This document shows, in pieces, positions 478 to 61,728 of a stretch of DNA of 64,000 bases. The stretch spans positions 33,034 to 97,033 of the forward strand of contig JAILGF010000075.1 of assembly GCA_024696945.1 (NCBI GenBank), read 5' to 3'. The stretch's first letter is position 1. Every line of letters begins with the position of its first letter. The position numbers and the translations under genes are program-made. The notes beneath the pieces were generated by a model. That model searched no databases. It was not told the origin of the DNA and was given only the letters and a program-made list of their open reading frames with translations. This DNA is from Lachnospiraceae bacterium (GTDB lineage Bacteria > Bacillota > Clostridia > Lachnospirales > Lachnospiraceae).

Positions 478-1559
478 CCGATTTTAAAGATTTTATGGAA
501 AATATACAGGCTGTCTTAAAATCCAAAAGAAAAAAACTCATGGCCGTAACGATACTTTTTGTTCTCGTTATTGTCCTGGGTTTTATCTGCCTGTTTGTGG
601 GTTCTTCGCATATGTCATTTTCGGACTGTATTGATGCTCTTTTGGGAACGGGCAGTCCTGCTTCGGTGCGGATAATAAGGAATATCCGTATCCCGAGAGT
701 GCTTGCGGCGATAATAGCCGGTGCGGGTCTGTCGGTTTCGGGGCTTATCATGCAGACTAACCTTAACAATCCGATGGCAAGTCCGGCTACGCTGGGCGTA
801 TCTAATGCGGCTGTATTCGGAGCCAATCTTTCGATAATCGCTTTTGCGGGAGGGTTCCTTTCTACCGGGAATAATTTAAACAGCTTTTCCGTCGGAGCCA
901 ATCCGTATGCTACTTCTTTTATGGCTTTTGTCTTTTCAACGCTTTCCATAATTCTTATTTTAGGGCTATGCAGGCTCCGTTCGTTTAGACCCGGAGTGGT
1001 GGTATTGGCCGGGATCGCCATAGGCTCGATATGGACTGCCGCAACGACCATACTTCAGTTCTATGCCACGGATGTGGGATTGTCCGCAGCGGTTATATGG
1101 ACCTTCGGAGATCTGGGAAGAGCTACTTACAAAACGGATATTATAATGGCGGTAACAGTGGCTGTAGGAATTGTTTTTTTCATCTTGATGAGCTGGAAAT
1201 TCAATGCCCTTCTTTCAGGAGACGCAGCTGCATCCGGCATGGGTGTGAACGTAAACCGGTTAAGGTTTGTTTCCATGCTTTTGGCCTCCGTTATTACCGC
1301 GGTATGTGTATCATATCTGGGGATCATCGGATTTGTCGGGATCATCTGCCCGCATGTTGTTAAGAAGTTCCTGGGACAGGATCATCGGTTTACGATCCCG
1401 GCATGTGTGTTCGCAGGCAGTATACTGCTCTTGCTTGCCGATACCGTTTCAAGGAGCATGGGGAACGGTTCCGCGCTTCCCGTGGGTGCGATCACTTCGC
1501 TGCTGGGAGCACCCTTCTTCTTGATAATAATCCTCTTTAGGAAGGGGGACAGGGCATGA
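474..1559 (+). CDS. FecCD-family iron/siderophore-type ABC transporter permease (TTG start at 474, or ATG at 495)
   Basis: Multi-TM protein with FecCD signatures 'RIPRVLAAIIAGAGLSVSGLIMQTNLNNPMASPATLGVSNAA' and 'GIIGFVGIICPHVVKKFLGQDHR'. Confidence 0.93.
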   Translation: MTDFKDFMENIQAVLKSKRKKLMAVTILFVLVIVLGFICLFVGSSHMSFSDCIDALLGTGSPASVRIIRNIRIPRVLAAIIAGAGLSVSGLIMQTNLNNPMASPATLGVSNAAVFGANLSIIAFAGGFLSTGNNLNSFSVGANPYATSFMAFVFSTLSIILILGLCRLRSFRPGVVVLAGIAIGSIWTAATTILQFYATDVGLSAAVIWTFGDLGRATYKTDIIMAVTVAVGIVFFILMSWKFNALLSGDAAASGMGVNVNRLRFVSMLLASVITAVCVSYLGIIGFVGIICPHVVKKFLGQDHRFTIPACVFAGSILLLLADTVSRSMGNGSALPVGAITSLLGAPFFLIIILFRKGDRA

Positions 1560-2314
1560 TACTTGAGATAAAGGACTTGCGCTTCGGTTATTCCAAGAGA
1601 AGCCCCCTTGTGCTTGACGGCGTGAACCTTGAACTTGATAAAGGAGAGATTGGGGTATTGCTCGGGAAAAACGGCTCGGGCAAAACCACATTGTTTAAAA
1701 ATATATTGGGACTTGTGAAACCGGCTTCGGGGAATATTCTTTTTAAAGGGAAAGATCTCCTGAAGATCAAAGGGAATGAAAGAGCAAAGCATATTTCGTA
1801 TGTTCCGCAAAATGCCGAGTTTGGATCTTTAAGCGTATTTGATACCGTGCTTATGGGAAGGATGCCTTATTTCGGACTCCGTTCCGGCAGCAGCGACGAG
1901 GAAAAGACTGCCGAAATGCTAAAGGAGATGGGCATGGAGCACCTGGCATCGAGGAATGTTGAAGAGCTTTCGGGAGGCGAAAGACAGAAAACTGCTATAG
2001 CGAGAGCTCTTGTACAGGAGCCTGAATTCATGATATTCGATGAACCTACAGGAAATCTTGATATCGCAAATGAGCAGCTTATCCTGAAGGAAGCCGGAAG
2101 GGTCGCAAAGGAAAAAGGGATAGGGATACTTACTTCACTTCATGACATTAATCAGGCTCTTGCCGTAGGGGACAGGTTCTTCTTCTTAAAGAACGGAAGG
2201 ATCCTGTATTCCGGGGACAGCAGCATTGTATCGAAAGAGATAATCGAAGATGTTTTTGATGCCAAGGTAAACCTGATAGAACATGAAGGCAAAAAGGTAG
2301 TCTTAAATTACTGA
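1556..2314 (+). CDS. FepC/FecE-type ABC transporter ATP-binding protein
   Basis: Walker A GKNGSGKTT, signature LSGGERQ, Walker B FMIFDEPTGNLD; start overlaps permease stop (ATGA). Confidence 0.95.
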   Translation: MILEIKDLRFGYSKRSPLVLDGVNLELDKGEIGVLLGKNGSGKTTLFKNILGLVKPASGNILFKGKDLLKIKGNERAKHISYVPQNAEFGSLSVFDTVLMGRMPYFGLRSGSSDEEKTAEMLKEMGMEHLASRNVEELSGGERQKTAIARALVQEPEFMIFDEPTGNLDIANEQLILKEAGRVAKEKGIGILTSLHDINQALAVGDRFFFLKNGRILYSGDSSIVSKEIIEDVFDAKVNLIEHEGKKVVLNY

Positions 2315-2389
2315 AAAAAGAAATAGCCTTTTGGCAAGATTTATGATATATTAATTATTACTGCAGATTTTTTCAAGGAGGAAAAGGAG

Positions 2390-4102
2390 ATGGCGGATTG
2401 GATCGTTGTTGTTGATGATGATTCCACGAACTTAAAAATGGCCGGACGTATTCTTAGCAAGCATAATAAAAGAGTTACAGCCATGACTTCAGGGTATGCC
2501 CTTCTTGATTATATCAAAGGAAATATACCTGATATTATCCTGCTTGATATAAAGATGCCGGACATGGACGGCTTCGAGACTTTAAGAAAACTCAGGGCAC
2601 TCGAAAAAGAACTGAATATTAACGAGATACCGGTCATCTTCCTTACCGCGGATGAAGATGTCAGCACCGAGATGCGCGGTTTTGAGGTGGGAGTATCCGA
2701 TTATGTGAGAAAGCCCTTTGATCCGGAAATACTTGTTAAGAGAATAGATAATATCATAGGAAAACAGGAACAGATTCTTAAATTCCAGGAAGAGGCCACT
2801 ATAGATCAGCTGACCGGGCTTCTGAACAAGACGGCCACAAAAGATAAAATGACGGGTATCTGCGGCAGGATGTCGGGATACCTTATGATAATAGACCTTG
2901 ACAGCTTTAAGCTTGTAAACGATATTTACGGGCATTCGATGGGTGATGAGGTACTGAAGAGCTTTGCCGATATTTTAAGAAAATGTTTTTCCGAAGACTG
3001 TGTGATCGGAAGGATCGGAGGGGATGAGTTCCTGGCGTTTTCACCGGAAATTGACAGTGAGGATGACCTGAAACCTCTGACAGAAAGGCTCAATTCCAGC
3101 ATGACGGAAAAAGCAAAGCAGCTCATGGGGCAGGATATGACCATTCCGCTCGGAGTGTCAATGGGCGCGGCATTTATTTCCGGAAAGAATTCCGATTATG
3201 AGGAGCTCTTTAAGGCGGCAGACAAGGCACTTTATAATGTTAAGCAGAACGGAAAGCACGGCTGCGCCGTTTACAGCGCGGAATCCGAATACGAGGACGA
3301 GGTGATCATGAACCTGAAAACCATCAGCATGATCCTTTCGGAAAGAAATATACCGGACCGTGCGCTGCAGCTTGACAGGGAATCCTTTATATATGTTTAC
3401 CGGTTCCTAATAAGATACATAATGAGATATCGCAAAAAGGCGTGCAAGCTTCTTATCACACTGTCTGAGGGAAATGTGGGCGGAAACTTTGATGAGACCT
3501 GCGATATGTTCCTTACTCATGTGATGGACCACCTACGGAAGAGCGATATCGTTATGCAGTACCGCAAGAATCAGGTCTTTGTTTTCCTTACCGATATCAA
3601 GGAAGGAGCTGTTCTTCAGGTTATAGGAAATATTATCAATTCCTGGAACGAACAGAAGGAAGGAAGCCTTTCCATTACATATGAGTATGATTTTGTAAAG
3701 TTTGATGAGAACCCGGTTACCGAGGACAATGAACCACCGAGAGTTGCGGTTGTTGATGATGACAGCTCCAACCTGAAGCTTGCGGGACATATCTTAAGCA
3801 AATACAATATCCGCGTAACTGCGCTGAGGTCGGGAGAAGCGCTTCTGGAATTCCTTAAGAATAACAAACCCGATCTTATACTTCTCGATATAAAAATGCC
3901 GGGGATGGACGGTTTTGAAACCATGGAGAAGCTTAAGGCCATGGATGAGGACATTGCGGATATTCCGGTAGCGTTCTTAACGGCAGATGAGAATGCGGAA
4001 TCGGAGAAAAGGGGAGTTGAACTCGGAGCGGTCGATTTCATAAAGAAGCCCTTTATTCCCGAAGTATTGGTGATGCGCGTAAAGAGTATCTTAAGTAAAT
4101 GA
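2390..4102 (+). CDS. REC-GGDEF-REC response regulator/diguanylate cyclase
   Basis: Two receiver domains (DIILLDIKMPDMDGFE and DLILLDIKMPGMDGFE) flank a GGDEF domain with intact GGDEF motif (GRIGGDEFLAF). Confidence 0.93.
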   Translation: MADWIVVVDDDSTNLKMAGRILSKHNKRVTAMTSGYALLDYIKGNIPDIILLDIKMPDMDGFETLRKLRALEKELNINEIPVIFLTADEDVSTEMRGFEVGVSDYVRKPFDPEILVKRIDNIIGKQEQILKFQEEATIDQLTGLLNKTATKDKMTGICGRMSGYLMIIDLDSFKLVNDIYGHSMGDEVLKSFADILRKCFSEDCVIGRIGGDEFLAFSPEIDSEDDLKPLTERLNSSMTEKAKQLMGQDMTIPLGVSMGAAFISGKNSDYEELFKAADKALYNVKQNGKHGCAVYSAESEYEDEVIMNLKTISMILSERNIPDRALQLDRESFIYVYRFLIRYIMRYRKKACKLLITLSEGNVGGNFDETCDMFLTHVMDHLRKSDIVMQYRKNQVFVFLTDIKEGAVLQVIGNIINSWNEQKEGSLSITYEYDFVKFDENPVTEDNEPPRVAVVDDDSSNLKLAGHILSKYNIRVTALRSGEALLEFLKNNKPDLILLDIKMPGMDGFETMEKLKAMDEDIADIPVAFLTADENAESEKRGVELGAVDFIKKPFIPEVLVMRVKSILSK

Positions 4103-4108
4103 GAATTT

Positions 4109-4138
4109 CCTTGACACTGATTGTCAAGGTGATATAAT
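4109..4138 (+). promoter_or_regulatory. sigma-A-type promoter with 8-bp inverted repeat over the -35, upstream of iorA
   Basis: TTGACA (4111-4116), 16-bp spacer, TATAAT (4133-4138); CCTTGACA-CTGAT-TGTCAAGG at 4109-4129. Confidence 0.7.
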
Positions 4139-4174
4139 GGATTTTTAGTTAAAATGAATCGGAGGTTATCTTAC

Positions 4175-5908
4175 ATGGCAGAAAAGAAACTGATGTTGGG
4201 AAACGAGGCCATCGCACGCGGTGCTTATGAAGCAGGCGTTAAGGTTTCGGCCGCATATCCCGGTACTCCCAGCACCGAAATCAGCGAGAATATTGTAAAG
4301 TATGATGAAATCTATTGTGAGTGGTCACCCAATGAGAAGGTGGCTATGGAAGTTGCAATCGGAGCTTCGCTTGCAGGCGTAAGGTCACTTGCTTCAATGA
4401 AGCATGTCGGCGTAAACGTGGCTTCGGACCCTTTGTATACCGTAAGCTACATAGGTGTTACCGGCGGTCTTGTTATCGTGGCGGCGGACGATCCCGGAAT
4501 GTACAGCTCACAGAACGAGCAGGATTCACGTGCCGTTGCACGTGCAGCACATATCCCGGTCATCGAGCCTTCTGACAGTGCAGAAGCTAAGGAATTCATC
4601 AAGTTTGCATATGATATAAGCGAGAAGTACGATACTCCCGTTATGTTCAGGACTACCACACGTATTGCTCATTCACAGGGACTGGTTGAGCTCGAGGACA
4701 GATGCGAGCCCATTGATATCCCTTATGTTAAGAATGCCGCAAAGAATGTTATGATGCCCGGAAATGCCATTAAGCGCCACCCTGTTGTAGAGGCACGTGA
4801 AAAGCAGATGGCTATAGACGGTGCCGATTTCCCCATCAACAGGATAGAGATGAACGATACCAAGATAGGTGTTATTACTTCCGGTATCCCTTATCAGTAT
4901 GTTAAGGAAGCACTTCCCAATGCTTCTGTTCTGAAGCTGGGTTGCGTAAATCCGCTTCCTAAGCAGATGATCATTGACTTTGCAAAGAAGGTTGACAAGC
5001 TTTATATTATAGAAGAACTTGATCCCATTATTGAAGAGCAGGTTAAGTCATGGGGCGTTGAGTGTACGGGTAAGGAAATACTTACCATCCAGGGCGAATA
5101 CAGCACAAATATGCTGAAAAAAGCTATTTTGGGACAGGAACTTGACATTGAGGCCAAGGCTGATGTTCCCGTAAGACCTCCTATCCTTTGCCCGGGCTGC
5201 CCTCACAGAAGTACTTTCTTTACTTTAAACAAGTTAAAGATTCATGCAGCAGGCGATATCGGCTGTTATACCCTCGGTGCCGTTGCTCCTTTGAACGTGG
5301 TTGAGACCACTGTTTGTATGGGTTCTTCCATCTCCACGCTTCACGGAATGGAGAAGGCTAAGGGCAAGGACTATATCAAGGACTGGGTAGCAGTTATCGG
5401 TGATTCGACATTTATGCATACCGGTGTTAACTCTCTTATGAACATGTTCTATAACCAGGGTACCGGTACGGTTCTTATCCTCGACAATTCAACGACCGGT
5501 ATGACAGGACATCAGGACCATGCCGCAACAGGTAAGACTCTTAAGGGCGAGATCGTTCCTGCCATCGATATTTACAAGCTTTGCCATGACGGTATCGGAA
5601 TTGAGAATACAAGGATCGTTAATGCGTTTGATACAAAGGAACTTGAGAAGGCCATTAAGGAAGAGGTGGCAAGAGATGCTGTTTCGGTTATTATCGTTCA
5701 AGCTCCTTGTGCTCTTCTTAAGTCAAATAAGCCGAAGCCCGCGTTCCATATCGATACTGACAAATGTAAGCGCTGCTATATGTGCATGAAGCCCGCATGT
5801 CCCGCTATCACAAAGGCTGAGGACGGCACAGTTTCCATCAATGCTACTATGTGTAACGGCTGCGGTCTGTGCGAGGGGCAGTGTAAATTTGGAGCGATTT
5901 TGAGATAA
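4175..5908 (+). CDS. iorA: Indolepyruvate ferredoxin oxidoreductase alpha subunit
   Basis: ORF from 4154, ATG at 4175 preferred; TPP enzyme 'GDSTFMHTGVNSLMNM', C-terminal 2x[4Fe-4S] CxxCxxCxxxxCP clusters. Confidence 0.95.
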   Translation: MAEKKLMLGNEAIARGAYEAGVKVSAAYPGTPSTEISENIVKYDEIYCEWSPNEKVAMEVAIGASLAGVRSLASMKHVGVNVASDPLYTVSYIGVTGGLVIVAADDPGMYSSQNEQDSRAVARAAHIPVIEPSDSAEAKEFIKFAYDISEKYDTPVMFRTTTRIAHSQGLVELEDRCEPIDIPYVKNAAKNVMMPGNAIKRHPVVEAREKQMAIDGADFPINRIEMNDTKIGVITSGIPYQYVKEALPNASVLKLGCVNPLPKQMIIDFAKKVDKLYIIEELDPIIEEQVKSWGVECTGKEILTIQGEYSTNMLKKAILGQELDIEAKADVPVRPPILCPGCPHRSTFFTLNKLKIHAAGDIGCYTLGAVAPLNVVETTVCMGSSISTLHGMEKAKGKDYIKDWVAVIGDSTFMHTGVNSLMNMFYNQGTGTVLILDNSTTGMTGHQDHAATGKTLKGEIVPAIDIYKLCHDGIGIENTRIVNAFDTKELEKAIKEEVARDAVSVIIVQAPCALLKSNKPKPAFHIDTDKCKRCYMCMKPACPAITKAEDGTVSINATMCNGCGLCEGQCKFGAILR

Positions 5909-14729: not shown

Positions 14730-15248
14730 ATGGCAGAAGCTAACTGGTATGTAGTTCATACCTATTCAGGGTATGAGAACAAAGTAAAAGCCAACATCGA
14801 GAAAACTATCGAGAACAGAGGACTTCAGGATCAGATACTTGAGGTTTCGGTACCGCTTCAGAACGTTGTCGAGATTAAGAACGGCGTTCGTAAGTCCGTA
14901 CAGAAGAAGATGTTTCCCGGATATGTGCTCTTAAACATGGTTATGAATGATGATACTTGGTACGTTGTTCGAAACACCAGAGGCGTTACCGGTTTCGTAG
15001 GACCCGGATCAAAGCCCGTTCCTTTGACTGAGGCTGAGATGAAGGCTATGGGTGTTGCCGATGAAGAGATCATGCTTGATTTCGAAGTTGGTGATACAGT
15101 GACCGTTATGTCAGGTGCCTGGGAGAATTATCAGGGAATCGTCAGATCGATCAACGAGAGCAAACAGACCGTTACGATCAGCATTGATGTATTTGGCAGA
15201 GAGACACCCGTTGAAATCGGTTTCACGGATGTCAGATCGGAAATGTAA
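14730..15248 (+). CDS. nusG: Transcription termination/antitermination factor NusG
   Basis: 'NWYVVHTYSGYENKVKANIEKTIENRGLQDQI...KMFPGYVLLNMVMNDDTWYVVRNTRGVTGFVG' plus KOW. Confidence 0.98.
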   Translation: MAEANWYVVHTYSGYENKVKANIEKTIENRGLQDQILEVSVPLQNVVEIKNGVRKSVQKKMFPGYVLLNMVMNDDTWYVVRNTRGVTGFVGPGSKPVPLTEAEMKAMGVADEEIMLDFEVGDTVTVMSGAWENYQGIVRSINESKQTVTISIDVFGRETPVEIGFTDVRSEM

Positions 15249-15289
15249 ATTAATTTATTAGCGTATGTTACGCAGAATCGAGGATTAAA

Positions 15290-15715
15290 ATGGCAAAGAA
15301 AGTTACAGGTTATATCAAATTACAGATTCCGGCTGGAAAGGCAACACCGGCACCTCCTGTAGGTCCCGCACTTGGCCAGCATGGTGTTAACATTGTTCAG
15401 TTTACTAAGGAGTTTAATGCAAGGACAGCAGATCAGGGCGATCTTATCATCCCCGTTGTCATCACTGTATATGCAGACAGAAGCTTCAGCTTCATTACAA
15501 AGACTCCTCCCGCAGCAGTGCTTTTGAAGAAGGCATGCAACTTAAAGACAGCTTCAGGTCAGCCTAACAAGAATAAGGTTGCTACCATCAAGCGTTCGGA
15601 AGTTCAGAAGATAGCTGAGAAGAAGATGCCCGATCTTAATGCAGCAAGCATTGAAGCAGCTACCAGCATGATCGCAGGTACCGCAAGAAGCATGGGAATC
15701 GTAGTTGAGGATTAA
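15290..15715 (+). CDS. rplK: 50S ribosomal protein L11
   Basis: '[43 protein letters not shown]'. Confidence 0.98.
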
Positions 15716-58554: not shown

Positions 58555-58583
58555 TTGTAATTTATCAAATTTCTCTATATACT
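58555..58583 (+). promoter_or_regulatory. Promoter of RiPP-like cluster
   Basis: TTGTAA, 17-bp spacer, TATACT. Confidence 0.55.
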
Positions 58584-58646: not shown

Positions 58647-60497
58647 GTGGAAGATTTTAACATTGAACTTGCAGGCATTCCTTTTAAGGTCAGATGCAGG
58701 TATGGAAAAAACAGAGCTTTTTTTGAAGGCTACTTTACTGAGAAAGAGCCATACTTTACAATTGAACCTACCGATGAGGATATTGCATTTGCCGAGGACG
58801 GGTTTAAACGATTGAACGAAACCGAAGGCTTTCCTCAGGAAGAATATGACGATTGCTTTCTTGAGAATAACGCAATCCATATCCTGGCAATCGATAAACT
58901 GATAGAATATAACGTGCTTATGCTGCACGGGTCGGCTCTTGCAATGGATGGACAAGGCATTATCTTTACCGCAAAGAGCGGAACAGGAAAGAGCACTCAT
59001 GCTAAGCTTTGGAGAGAACTGTTTGGTTCTCGGGTTCAGATGATCAACGACGATAAGCCAATGATCCGCGTTGATGAGATGAAGGCTTACGGTACACCTT
59101 GGAACGGGAAGCATAACCTGAGTACCAATACCTCGGTACCGATCAAAGCAATAGTTAAAATAGAGAGGGCTAAAAAGAACCGGATAAATCCGATCGGCGT
59201 TAAAGAGGCTATGGACCTGTTAATGAAGCAGGTTCAGATATCTAACGATCCGGATAAAGTTGTACTTGCTCTGGAACTCTATGCAAGAGTGATTGAAAAT
59301 GTTAAGTTTTACAAACTCGGATGCAATATGGATCCGGAAGCGGCACGTGTAGCGTGGGAAGAACTGATAGGCCCCCGGAATGCATTCGAATATCTTGATA
59401 CCTTGCGTTCACAGAATACGAAGCAGCGTTATAGCAAGGTAATGGATTACATCGAGACAAAAGCAAGAAAAATGGGAGTGCCGTTAGTCGGTCAATTTGA
59501 ATTAACACCCTTATGCAACCTTGATTGCAAGATGTGTTATGTTCATCTTTCAGGGGACAGACTGCGGGGACAGAAGCTTTTATCTACAGAACAGTGGAAA
59601 GACCTAATGAAGCAGGCCTTTTCTGCAGGGATGATGGATGCTGTACTTACCGGAGGCGAGTGCCTTACATATCCGGGATTTGATGAGCTTTATCTTTACC
59701 TTCAAAGCCTTGGGATACAAAGTACTGTGATGACCAACGGTGTGTTACTGGATGAAAAGAGGCTGGATTTCTTTAGGGAACATCCGTCGGCATGGATACA
59801 GGTAACCCTGTATGGAAACAGTGAAGATGCATACGAACGTGTTACGGGACACAGAGTGTTCAATAAGGTTCTCAGTAATCTGAAAAAGGTAAAAGAATAC
59901 GGTTTTCCTCTTTCCATAAATATTACTCCGAACTCTATTCTGGGTGAGGATATCTTTGAAACGATACGCCTTGCAAGAAGCCTGACAGACGATATAATCA
60001 TATCTACATCGTTATTTACTCTGCCTGGCGAGGAGTGGCGTCTTGACGGACTGACAAAGCTTGATGATGAGTTTATAGCACGGATTTTAAGGTTTGATAA
60101 GGAACTTAGAGGAAAGAAGATCCGCGAAATTCCCGAGAATGAACTTCCTGAGCCCGGGGGACCGAAAAATGCATGCACAGAATGCGGGTTGGAATGCGGC
60201 GGCGGAAGATCGAATTTCGTGCTGGATTGGAAGGGCAGCTTACGTATCTGCAACAGACTGGAGACGAAGAGCTTTCCGATGGATGACGGATTCTTAAAAA
60301 GTTGGAAAGAGATCAACCGGATTGCAAACAACTGGCCGAGAGTTACGGAATGTAAAGGATGTGCATACGAAAAAGTCTGTGATAATTGTGCCGCAAAGCT
60401 TGCACAATACGCAGAACCGGGTGAATACCCTAAAGACTATTGCAGAAGAACAAAGTTCCTGGTGAGCAGGGGAGTGCTTCCTCCACCGGAATGCTAA
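58647..60497 (+). CDS. Fused HPr-kinase-like P-loop domain + radical SAM/SPASM protein (GTG start)
   Basis: N-term 'LMLHGSALAMDGQGIIFTAKSGTGKSTHAKLW...MINDDKPMIRV'; rSAM 'TPLCNLDCKMCYVHL' (CxxxCxxC); SPASM-like Cys array 'CTECGLECGGG...CNR...CKGCAYEKVCDNC...YC'. Confidence 0.92.
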   Translation: MEDFNIELAGIPFKVRCRYGKNRAFFEGYFTEKEPYFTIEPTDEDIAFAEDGFKRLNETEGFPQEEYDDCFLENNAIHILAIDKLIEYNVLMLHGSALAMDGQGIIFTAKSGTGKSTHAKLWRELFGSRVQMINDDKPMIRVDEMKAYGTPWNGKHNLSTNTSVPIKAIVKIERAKKNRINPIGVKEAMDLLMKQVQISNDPDKVVLALELYARVIENVKFYKLGCNMDPEAARVAWEELIGPRNAFEYLDTLRSQNTKQRYSKVMDYIETKARKMGVPLVGQFELTPLCNLDCKMCYVHLSGDRLRGQKLLSTEQWKDLMKQAFSAGMMDAVLTGGECLTYPGFDELYLYLQSLGIQSTVMTNGVLLDEKRLDFFREHPSAWIQVTLYGNSEDAYERVTGHRVFNKVLSNLKKVKEYGFPLSINITPNSILGEDIFETIRLARSLTDDIIISTSLFTLPGEEWRLDGLTKLDDEFIARILRFDKELRGKKIREIPENELPEPGGPKNACTECGLECGGGRSNFVLDWKGSLRICNRLETKSFPMDDGFLKSWKEINRIANNWPRVTECKGCAYEKVCDNCAAKLAQYAEPGEYPKDYCRRTKFLVSRGVLPPPEC

Positions 60498-60559: not shown

Positions 60560-60760
60560 ATGAAAAAGGAGTATACCGCACCGAAGATCGAGAAGCTTGA
60601 CTTTGATGAGACAGCTACTACTGCTGTTATTTCTTCAATTACACAGCAGCCGGTTATCGAAGATGACAACGACGATGATGATGGAGAGGGCGAGTCCGAC
60701 GGCAAGAAAGGCGATAAAGGAAAAGAAAAGCCCGGTAAAAAGAACGGCTGTAAGAAATAA
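60560..60760 (+). CDS. Candidate RiPP precursor peptide (66 aa)
   Basis: Strong RBS (TAGGAGGTAAGAAG-ATG); YTAPKI leader-like motif; sits between rSAM and PqqD-like genes. Confidence 0.72.
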   Translation: MKKEYTAPKIEKLDFDETATTAVISSITQQPVIEDDNDDDDGEGESDGKKGDKGKEKPGKKNGCKK

Positions 60761-60796
60761 TAGCATTTCTTGAAAGAAATTAACGGAGAAAGAAAA

Positions 60797-61063
60797 GTGA
60801 AAGCATGTAATGGTTTTATCCTCAGAAATATTGTTGGTGAATATATGCTTGTTCCCACTGGCGAAAGAATGAAAAGCTTTAACGGTACTATGATGCTGAA
60901 CGAGCTTGCGGCTTTTGTATGGGAACAGCTGCAGAGCCCAAAGTCCGAAAGCGAACTGCTCAATGCGGTGCTTGCGGAATACGATATTGATGAAGAAACT
61001 GCTTCAGCGGATCTTATGACACTCCTTAAGAAGTTTCAGGGTCTCGGTATTATTGAAGATTAA
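60797..61063 (+). CDS. PqqD-family RRE protein (88 aa, GTG start at 60797)
   Basis: 'MKACNGFILRNIVGEYMLVPTGERMKSFNGTMMLNELAAFVWEQL' typical PqqD; GGAG RBS 8 nt upstream of GTG; track start 60770 (TTG) less likely. Confidence 0.88.
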   Translation: MKACNGFILRNIVGEYMLVPTGERMKSFNGTMMLNELAAFVWEQLQSPKSESELLNAVLAEYDIDEETASADLMTLLKKFQGLGIIED

Positions 61064-61080: not shown

Positions 61081-61118
61081 AAAAAAATCCCTTGGATCTC
61101 TCCAAGGGATTTTTTATT
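61081..61118. terminator. Bidirectional terminator between PqqD gene and ferredoxin gene
   Basis: AAAAAAATCCCTTGGA-TCTC-TCCAAGGGATTTTTT. Confidence 0.9.
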
Positions 61119-61137: not shown

Positions 61138-61308
61138 TTATGCCTGCTGAGGTGCACCTACGGGACAGGTCTCTGCGCAAGCGCCGCAATCTACACAAGC
61201 GTCTGCATTGATCTCGTACTTGCCATCGCCTTCTGCAATAGCACCTGCGGGACAACCCTCTGCACATGCGCCACACATGATGCAGTCTTCACTGATCTTA
61301 TAAGCCAT
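61138..61308 (-). CDS. 2[4Fe-4S] ferredoxin (56 aa; absent from the ORF track)
   Basis: Reverse-strand translation MAYKISEDCIMCGACAEGCPAGAIAEGDGKYEINADACVDCGACAETCPVGAPQQA; RBS AGGAGG. Confidence 0.96.
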   Translation of the reverse strand: MAYKISEDCIMCGACAEGCPAGAIAEGDGKYEINADACVDCGACAETCPVGAPQQA

Positions 61309-61456: not shown

Positions 61457-61728
61457 TGCTGTGAGTTGATAGCGTAGAAGCGTGAGGTTGCTGCAGCGTA
61501 AAAACTGCAGGTTTTTCCGTGGAGCGAATGTCAAGTTTACAAAACTGACGACAAGTCACTGTACAATTGAATTTCTGCCGCGAGCAGATAAACCGTGAGT
61601 AAATCACTGTTTTTCAGCCGGGTCGGACCCGGTATTTAATTTGAGAAGGACATGAAACACACGGGTGAGTGTACAGTCGCCGCTTGTTGTACTTTCCCAA
61701 AAAGTGCGAAAAGGAGGAGACTTTTTTT
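61457..61728 (+). promoter_or_regulatory. Long structured S10-operon leader
   Basis: ~270 nt untranslated, with hairpins such as CCGGGTCGGACCCGG and CTGCAG...CTGCAG. Confidence 0.5.

Follow-up and report, generated by a model that had tools for sequence, protein, structure and literature searches.

A fusion of an HprK-like kinase and a radical SAM/SPASM enzyme in an apparently undescribed type of RiPP cluster from a Lachnospiraceae bacterium

Closest described systems

The closest described system is that of the linear polyphosphorylated peptides (LPP; Popov et al. 2026, PMC13381572), in which a YxxPx[V/I] leader, a discrete RRE and an HprK-like kinase are accompanied by a SipW-like peptidase and an MsbA-like ABC exporter, and a conserved serine lies about 18-21 residues after the leader tyrosine. 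Another is that of the paeninodin-like lasso peptides, whose clusters also contain an HprK-like kinase, a PqqD-type RRE and a similar leader motif, along with a B2 peptidase and a macrolactam cyclase. Motifs of the Y-x-x-P-x-[VILM] type are bound by both lasso and LPP RREs, and a split between W and Y in the leader separates the two pathways (PMC13381572). A third kind of relative is formed by the radical SAM/SPASM maturases, such as SkfB, SuiB, PqqE and AlbA.

Here, a window of 64,000 nucleotides from a Lachnospiraceae gut bacterium (GCA_024696945.1, contig JAILGF010000075.1) was analysed, and all coordinates are positions in this window unless a different locus is named. It holds a unit that shares with LPP the YxxPx[V/I] leader, the discrete RRE, the HprK-like kinase and the conserved serine, but has in addition a radical SAM/SPASM enzyme fused to the kinase. 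Unlike LPP clusters, the unit has no peptidase or transporter gene; the SipW-like peptidase and the MsbA-like exporter are, however, present in many relatives in which kinase and radical SAM enzyme are split, and on another contig of the same genome (C133). The full LPP motif YxxPxVLxHQxIxFETxxS is unmatched as well, the common elements being limited to YxxPx[V/I] and to F.ET in a shifted position. With respect to lasso clusters, the unit is without the B2 peptidase and the cyclase, both of which are on C133, and its leader reads YxxP, whereas the lasso precursor of the same genome has WxxP. As the full LPP motif, a local peptidase, an exporter and a cyclase were all looked for and found absent, the locus was assigned neither to LPP nor to lasso peptides.

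The combination of an HprK-like kinase with a radical SAM enzyme in a RiPP setting was absent from the searchable full text, though subscription papers and supplements may differ. The literature match that pairs HPr kinase, radical SAM and RiPP names HPr kinase in lasso clusters only, and radical SAM is never mentioned in the main text of the LPP paper (PMC13381572). Thus, the locus is apparently new: an LPP-like kinase/RRE cluster type that includes a radical SAM/SPASM enzyme, here with a rare kinase-radical SAM fusion.

Organisation of the unit

The unit consists of three genes on the forward strand, in the order fused enzyme, precursor peptide and RRE, followed by a terminator. The fused gene (58647..60497) is one uninterrupted ORF of 616 aa; it starts with GTG, preceded by the plausible ribosome-binding site AGGGAGA, and has no internal stop. 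Its product joins an HprK/PEPCK-type P-loop kinase domain (aa 1-242; 58647..59372) to a radical SAM/SPASM domain (aa 263-616; 59433..60494). The single polypeptide that had been proposed in a preliminary description of this DNA was thus borne out at exactly these positions, and the motifs quoted there are present, namely GSALAMDGQGIIFTAKSGTGKSTHAKLW (aa 95-122), MINDDKPMIRV (aa 132-142) and CNLDCKMC (aa 290-297). The promoter-like site upstream (58555-58583) is a consensus match of a kind not more frequent than expected by chance. The two genes downstream were no part of the preliminary description. The second gene (60560..60760, forward strand) has an AGGAGGT site and encodes a precursor-like peptide of 66 aa. 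It is followed by the PqqD-type RRE (60770..61063, forward strand; PF05402, 58.4 bits against a cut-off of 23.4), whose likely start is the GTG at 60797; the resulting 88 aa equal the length of its homologues in the related loci L002 and L004. An intrinsic-terminator-like hairpin with a 15-pair stem and a T-run (61082..61115, forward strand) ends the unit. No NCBIfam equivalog scored above cut-off for the fused enzyme or the RRE.

The flanks are housekeeping genes: a DnaB-type helicase gene, identified by reading the sequence, lies before the unit, and ribosomal protein genes lie after it, with an S10-Clostridia ribosomal protein leader at 61467-61554 (Rfam RF03136, 80.7 bits). A mobile origin was rejected, as the plasmid and phage matches were weak and covered single domains only. 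A gene for a small two-cluster [4Fe-4S] ferredoxin (61138-61308, minus strand) is oriented towards the unit. Because it is on the opposite strand and absent among the genes read beside the fused loci L001-L003, it was dropped as a candidate electron donor.

Relatives were collected from 84,980 genomes by a pattern scan, whose matches were confirmed with tblastn, and by whole-genome searches; since the scan is limited to close relatives, fusions at a greater distance may have escaped it. Three distinct fused genes were found: that of the window, L001 (same genus, 70% identity) and L002/L003 (another genus of the same family, 61%). The count of fused against split architectures, which the preliminary description had suggested, gave these 3 among 72 homologues of the radical SAM domain, together with 53 that have an HprK gene on their own strand and at most 5 kb away. 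For the remaining 16, no such HprK was seen; 14 of them are near a contig or locus edge, and 2 have no edge nearby.

Taken together, these genes probably form a compact unit for RiPP maturation, in which the discrete RRE would bind the YxxPx[VI] motif of the leader and hand the precursor over to a bifunctional enzyme that would make two modifications. The N-terminal domain, using ATP, would phosphorylate a conserved serine after the leader (S26, perhaps S25), and the C-terminal domain would carry out a radical modification within the C-terminal core, in whichever order the two reactions may occur. Leader removal and export would fall to a peptidase and a transporter encoded elsewhere, for which contig C133 offers candidates.

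Radical SAM domain and its putative substrate

The radical SAM assignment is clear from Pfam (PF04055, 76.6 bits against a cut-off of 29.5), and the structural matches of the C-terminal part are the SPASM RiPP maturases SkfB, SuiB and PqqE, and also anSME. As in these maturases and AlbA, the CxxxCxxC cluster-binding motif is present (C290, C294, C297; 59514..59537, forward strand), with its three cysteines invariant in 71 homologues. The preliminary description had also claimed a full SPASM cysteine array, and the set is indeed complete: C517, C535, C569, C572, C578, C581 and C599 (aa 517-599; 60195..60443, forward strand) are invariant in 69-71 homologues. The SPASM motif is CX2CX5CX3C, CX3C being usual between the fifth and sixth cysteines; the fusion has CX2C there. 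Where the known maturases carry an N-terminal RRE, the fusion has the kinase.

The precursor has a leader homologous to those of L001, L002, L004 (a split relative) and L108 (a kinase with no adjacent radical SAM gene). It contains the RRE-binding motif YTAPKI, Ser25-Ser26 and a tail ending in NGCKK, and the precursors of related loci carry Y-x-x-P-x-[VILM]. Of 43 precursors, 36 have a serine between positions +18 and +21 from the Tyr (25 of the 43 at +19, the commonest position), as against 23-47% in four other four-residue windows; the 43 were picked by the leader motif and not by serine, though as related sequences they are not independent. LppK phosphorylates S3 of the LPP core, which is Tyr+18 when counted from the numbering of the paper (PMC13381572). 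S26 itself is invariant in the five aligned precursors.

At the other end, L001, L002 and L004 share the core GxGRGxGGGCDxxPxHxNxRTFSxGRNSxC, whose final cysteine is the very C-terminus. L108 keeps ILSSTG and has no such core. As this locus without radical SAM retains the serine motif and not the core, the simplest and most likely reading of the alignments is that the serine is the kinase site and the core is the radical SAM site. The conserved serine could instead belong to a leader-cleavage site. The core was also sought outside radical SAM clusters, in 397 genomes of the bacterial family, where four weak matches in unrelated genes look like chance.

The window precursor is without most of this core and has a single cysteine in a Lys/Gly/Asp-rich tail; the radical SAM chemistry is, therefore, the weakest point of the proposal for this strain. 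The radical SAM half may have lost a good substrate here, the precursor having diverged or decayed, so that only an LPP-like phosphorylated linear peptide would be made. This reading is rather unlikely, although it is the strongest of the alternatives. It draws on the retention of S26 without GGGCDxxPxHxNxRTFSxGRNSxC, and on the failure to find another core-bearing precursor when the genome was searched with the precursors of the window and of L001. Nevertheless, the radical SAM and SPASM cysteines are all intact, the dN of the radical SAM domain against L001 matches the low value of the kinase domain (dS being saturated), and the NGC of the tail is still aligned to the SGC with which the other precursors end.

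Kinase domain

The preliminary description had called the N-terminal domain HprK-like. In Pfam, Hpr_kinase_C reached 15.8 bits, under the cut-off of 33.3, and Hpr_kinase_N gave no match; therefore, the name would not be acceptable from a family search alone. A profile search of PDB sequences returned only weak matches around the P-loop of PEPCK and HprK. It was the AlphaFold model of the domain alone (pLDDT 94.9, pTM 0.90) that upheld the description: all matches among the 50 listed by Foldseek are PEPCK or HprK/P (PEPCK, E 5e-7; HprK/P 1kkm, E 4e-5), with modest TM-scores of at most 0.53 among the matches listed. Thus, judging by the model, the domain has the HprK/PEPCK fold, and it is structure and not sequence family that settles this. 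Its alignment with stand-alone kinases extends from end to end. In the full-length model, the domains are confident (pLDDT 92.3) and their arrangement is uncertain (pTM 0.65), residues 241-260 having a pLDDT of about 60.

Like HPr kinase/phosphorylase and PEPCK, the domain combines the P-loop kinase fold with a histidine before the P-loop and a DD/GD motif; it differs from HPr kinase/phosphorylase in the Pfam results above and in its RiPP-type operon. The active-site stretch (58926..59054, forward strand) comprises H94, the P-loop SGTGKST (aa 111-117) and D136, and H94, G114, K115 and D136 are conserved without exception across the 93 kinase homologues. Position 135 is Asp in 44 of the homologues and Gly in 48. 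The Gly at this first DD position in about half of them, together with the Pfam score, would suit a domain that only binds ATP, as a docking or regulatory module for the radical SAM enzyme, with the peptide not phosphorylated. Such a role is improbable, since no homologue departs from the P-loop Lys, the His or the second Asp, L108 has the kinase alone with a precursor, and LppK, also HprK-like, is a proven peptide kinase (PMC13381572). For the window and L001, dN/dS of the kinase domain is 0.09.

Other RiPP loci of the genome

Contig C133 carries a lasso-type cluster (L114, 7504-17805) with B2, a WxxP precursor, an HprK-like kinase, a cyclase, an RRE, an ABC exporter and a two-component system. 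It is adjoined by a SipW-like peptidase (14898-15362 of that locus) and by a protein of 459 aa in which an RRE at the N-terminus precedes an HprK-like domain at the C-terminus. Its lasso precursor reads WETP where that of the window reads YTAP. As no SipW-like peptidase or exporter was found beside the fused genes, those of C133 are candidates that may serve the window unit in trans. On contig C228, a radical SAM/SPASM relative (L082, 1099-2502) is accompanied by two short ORFs that resemble precursors and end in repeated NTNAC...SC..GHCVK..YA.DP, and no HprK was seen there; this is perhaps another RiPP family.

Given that L114 and L082 are further RiPP loci of this genome, with RREs and kinases, each domain of the fusion might have a peptide of its own, one of the two being encoded elsewhere in the genome. 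The chance of this is small: searches of the genome with the window and L001 precursors gave no second related precursor, and in split clusters the leaders serve both enzymes within one locus.

Fused and split relatives

The nearest split homologues align end to end with the fused protein. In the split relative L004, the kinase ends ...AAKVAWEGM and the radical SAM protein starts ...GDEYLDMLRRQN, whereas the fusion counterpart reads ...AARVAWEELIGPRNAFEYLDTLRSQN. In the fusion, two genes that usually lie side by side are joined head to tail. It recurs in L001/L105 and in L002/L003/L086/L087, that is, with an identical junction in two further species (61-70% identity), so that a single frameshift or an assembly error is excluded as the cause. 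Although the window genome is a draft of 232 contigs, an artefact joining two genes can be set aside, as L001 and L002 come from other assemblies.

The fused radical SAM domains form one clade in their tree (100/99). In the kinase tree, L107 and L108, sister loci without radical SAM, fall into one group with the window and L001 (100/97); hence, either the radical SAM half was lost there or the fusion arose more than once. Loss is favoured on these trees, since a single fusion accounts for that of the radical SAM domain. A lasso-cyclase-like gene stands beside the fused gene of L001 and also beside the stand-alone L107; in L001 it is part of a stretch directly upstream of the fused gene (1163-4831 of that locus), with a lasso-type HprK and two precursor-like ORFs.

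In split clusters, HprK often carries an RRE fusion instead, and a SipW-like peptidase and an ABC exporter are often added, so that these clusters resemble LPP clusters plus a radical SAM enzyme. Homologues of the peptidase were counted in 41 of 74 radical SAM loci and of the exporter in 23, short and repeated loci distorting both counts. Compact cassettes of radical SAM, RRE and HprK genes in Prevotella and relatives (Bacteroidota; L064-L080), with short precursors TYEKPTVQKVEFDFKTRIAASGC...C, are probably a large sub-family.

It had been suggested that fusing the two activities implies sequential or coupled action on one substrate. A shared peptide is plausible, given the adjacent precursor and RRE genes and the co-encoding of both enzymes in the 53 split clusters. 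That the fusion itself implies coupling found no support: the precursor of L004, the closest split locus, has the core of the fused L001 and L002, so the chemistry does not need the fusion, and in L107 and L108 the kinase occurs without radical SAM. A coupled scheme, in which phosphoserine would gate the radical step or serve as a reactive group in it, for example in a phosphorylation-dependent crosslink to a downstream Cys, is a long shot; if true, the fused enzyme would carry out a two-step reaction of which no example is known among RiPPs.

Significance

In related bacteria, the kinase and the radical SAM enzyme are almost always separate proteins of adjacent genes, so that the fusion indicates a branch of RiPP pathways that has apparently gone undescribed. 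The cluster class, made up of an HprK-like kinase, an RRE and a radical SAM enzyme, often with a SipW-like peptidase, extends over Bacillota, Bacteroidota and Coriobacteriia, with many members from ruminant guts. Within it, the fusion offers a single-protein system in which point mutations can probe the order and the coupling of phosphorylation and radical chemistry.
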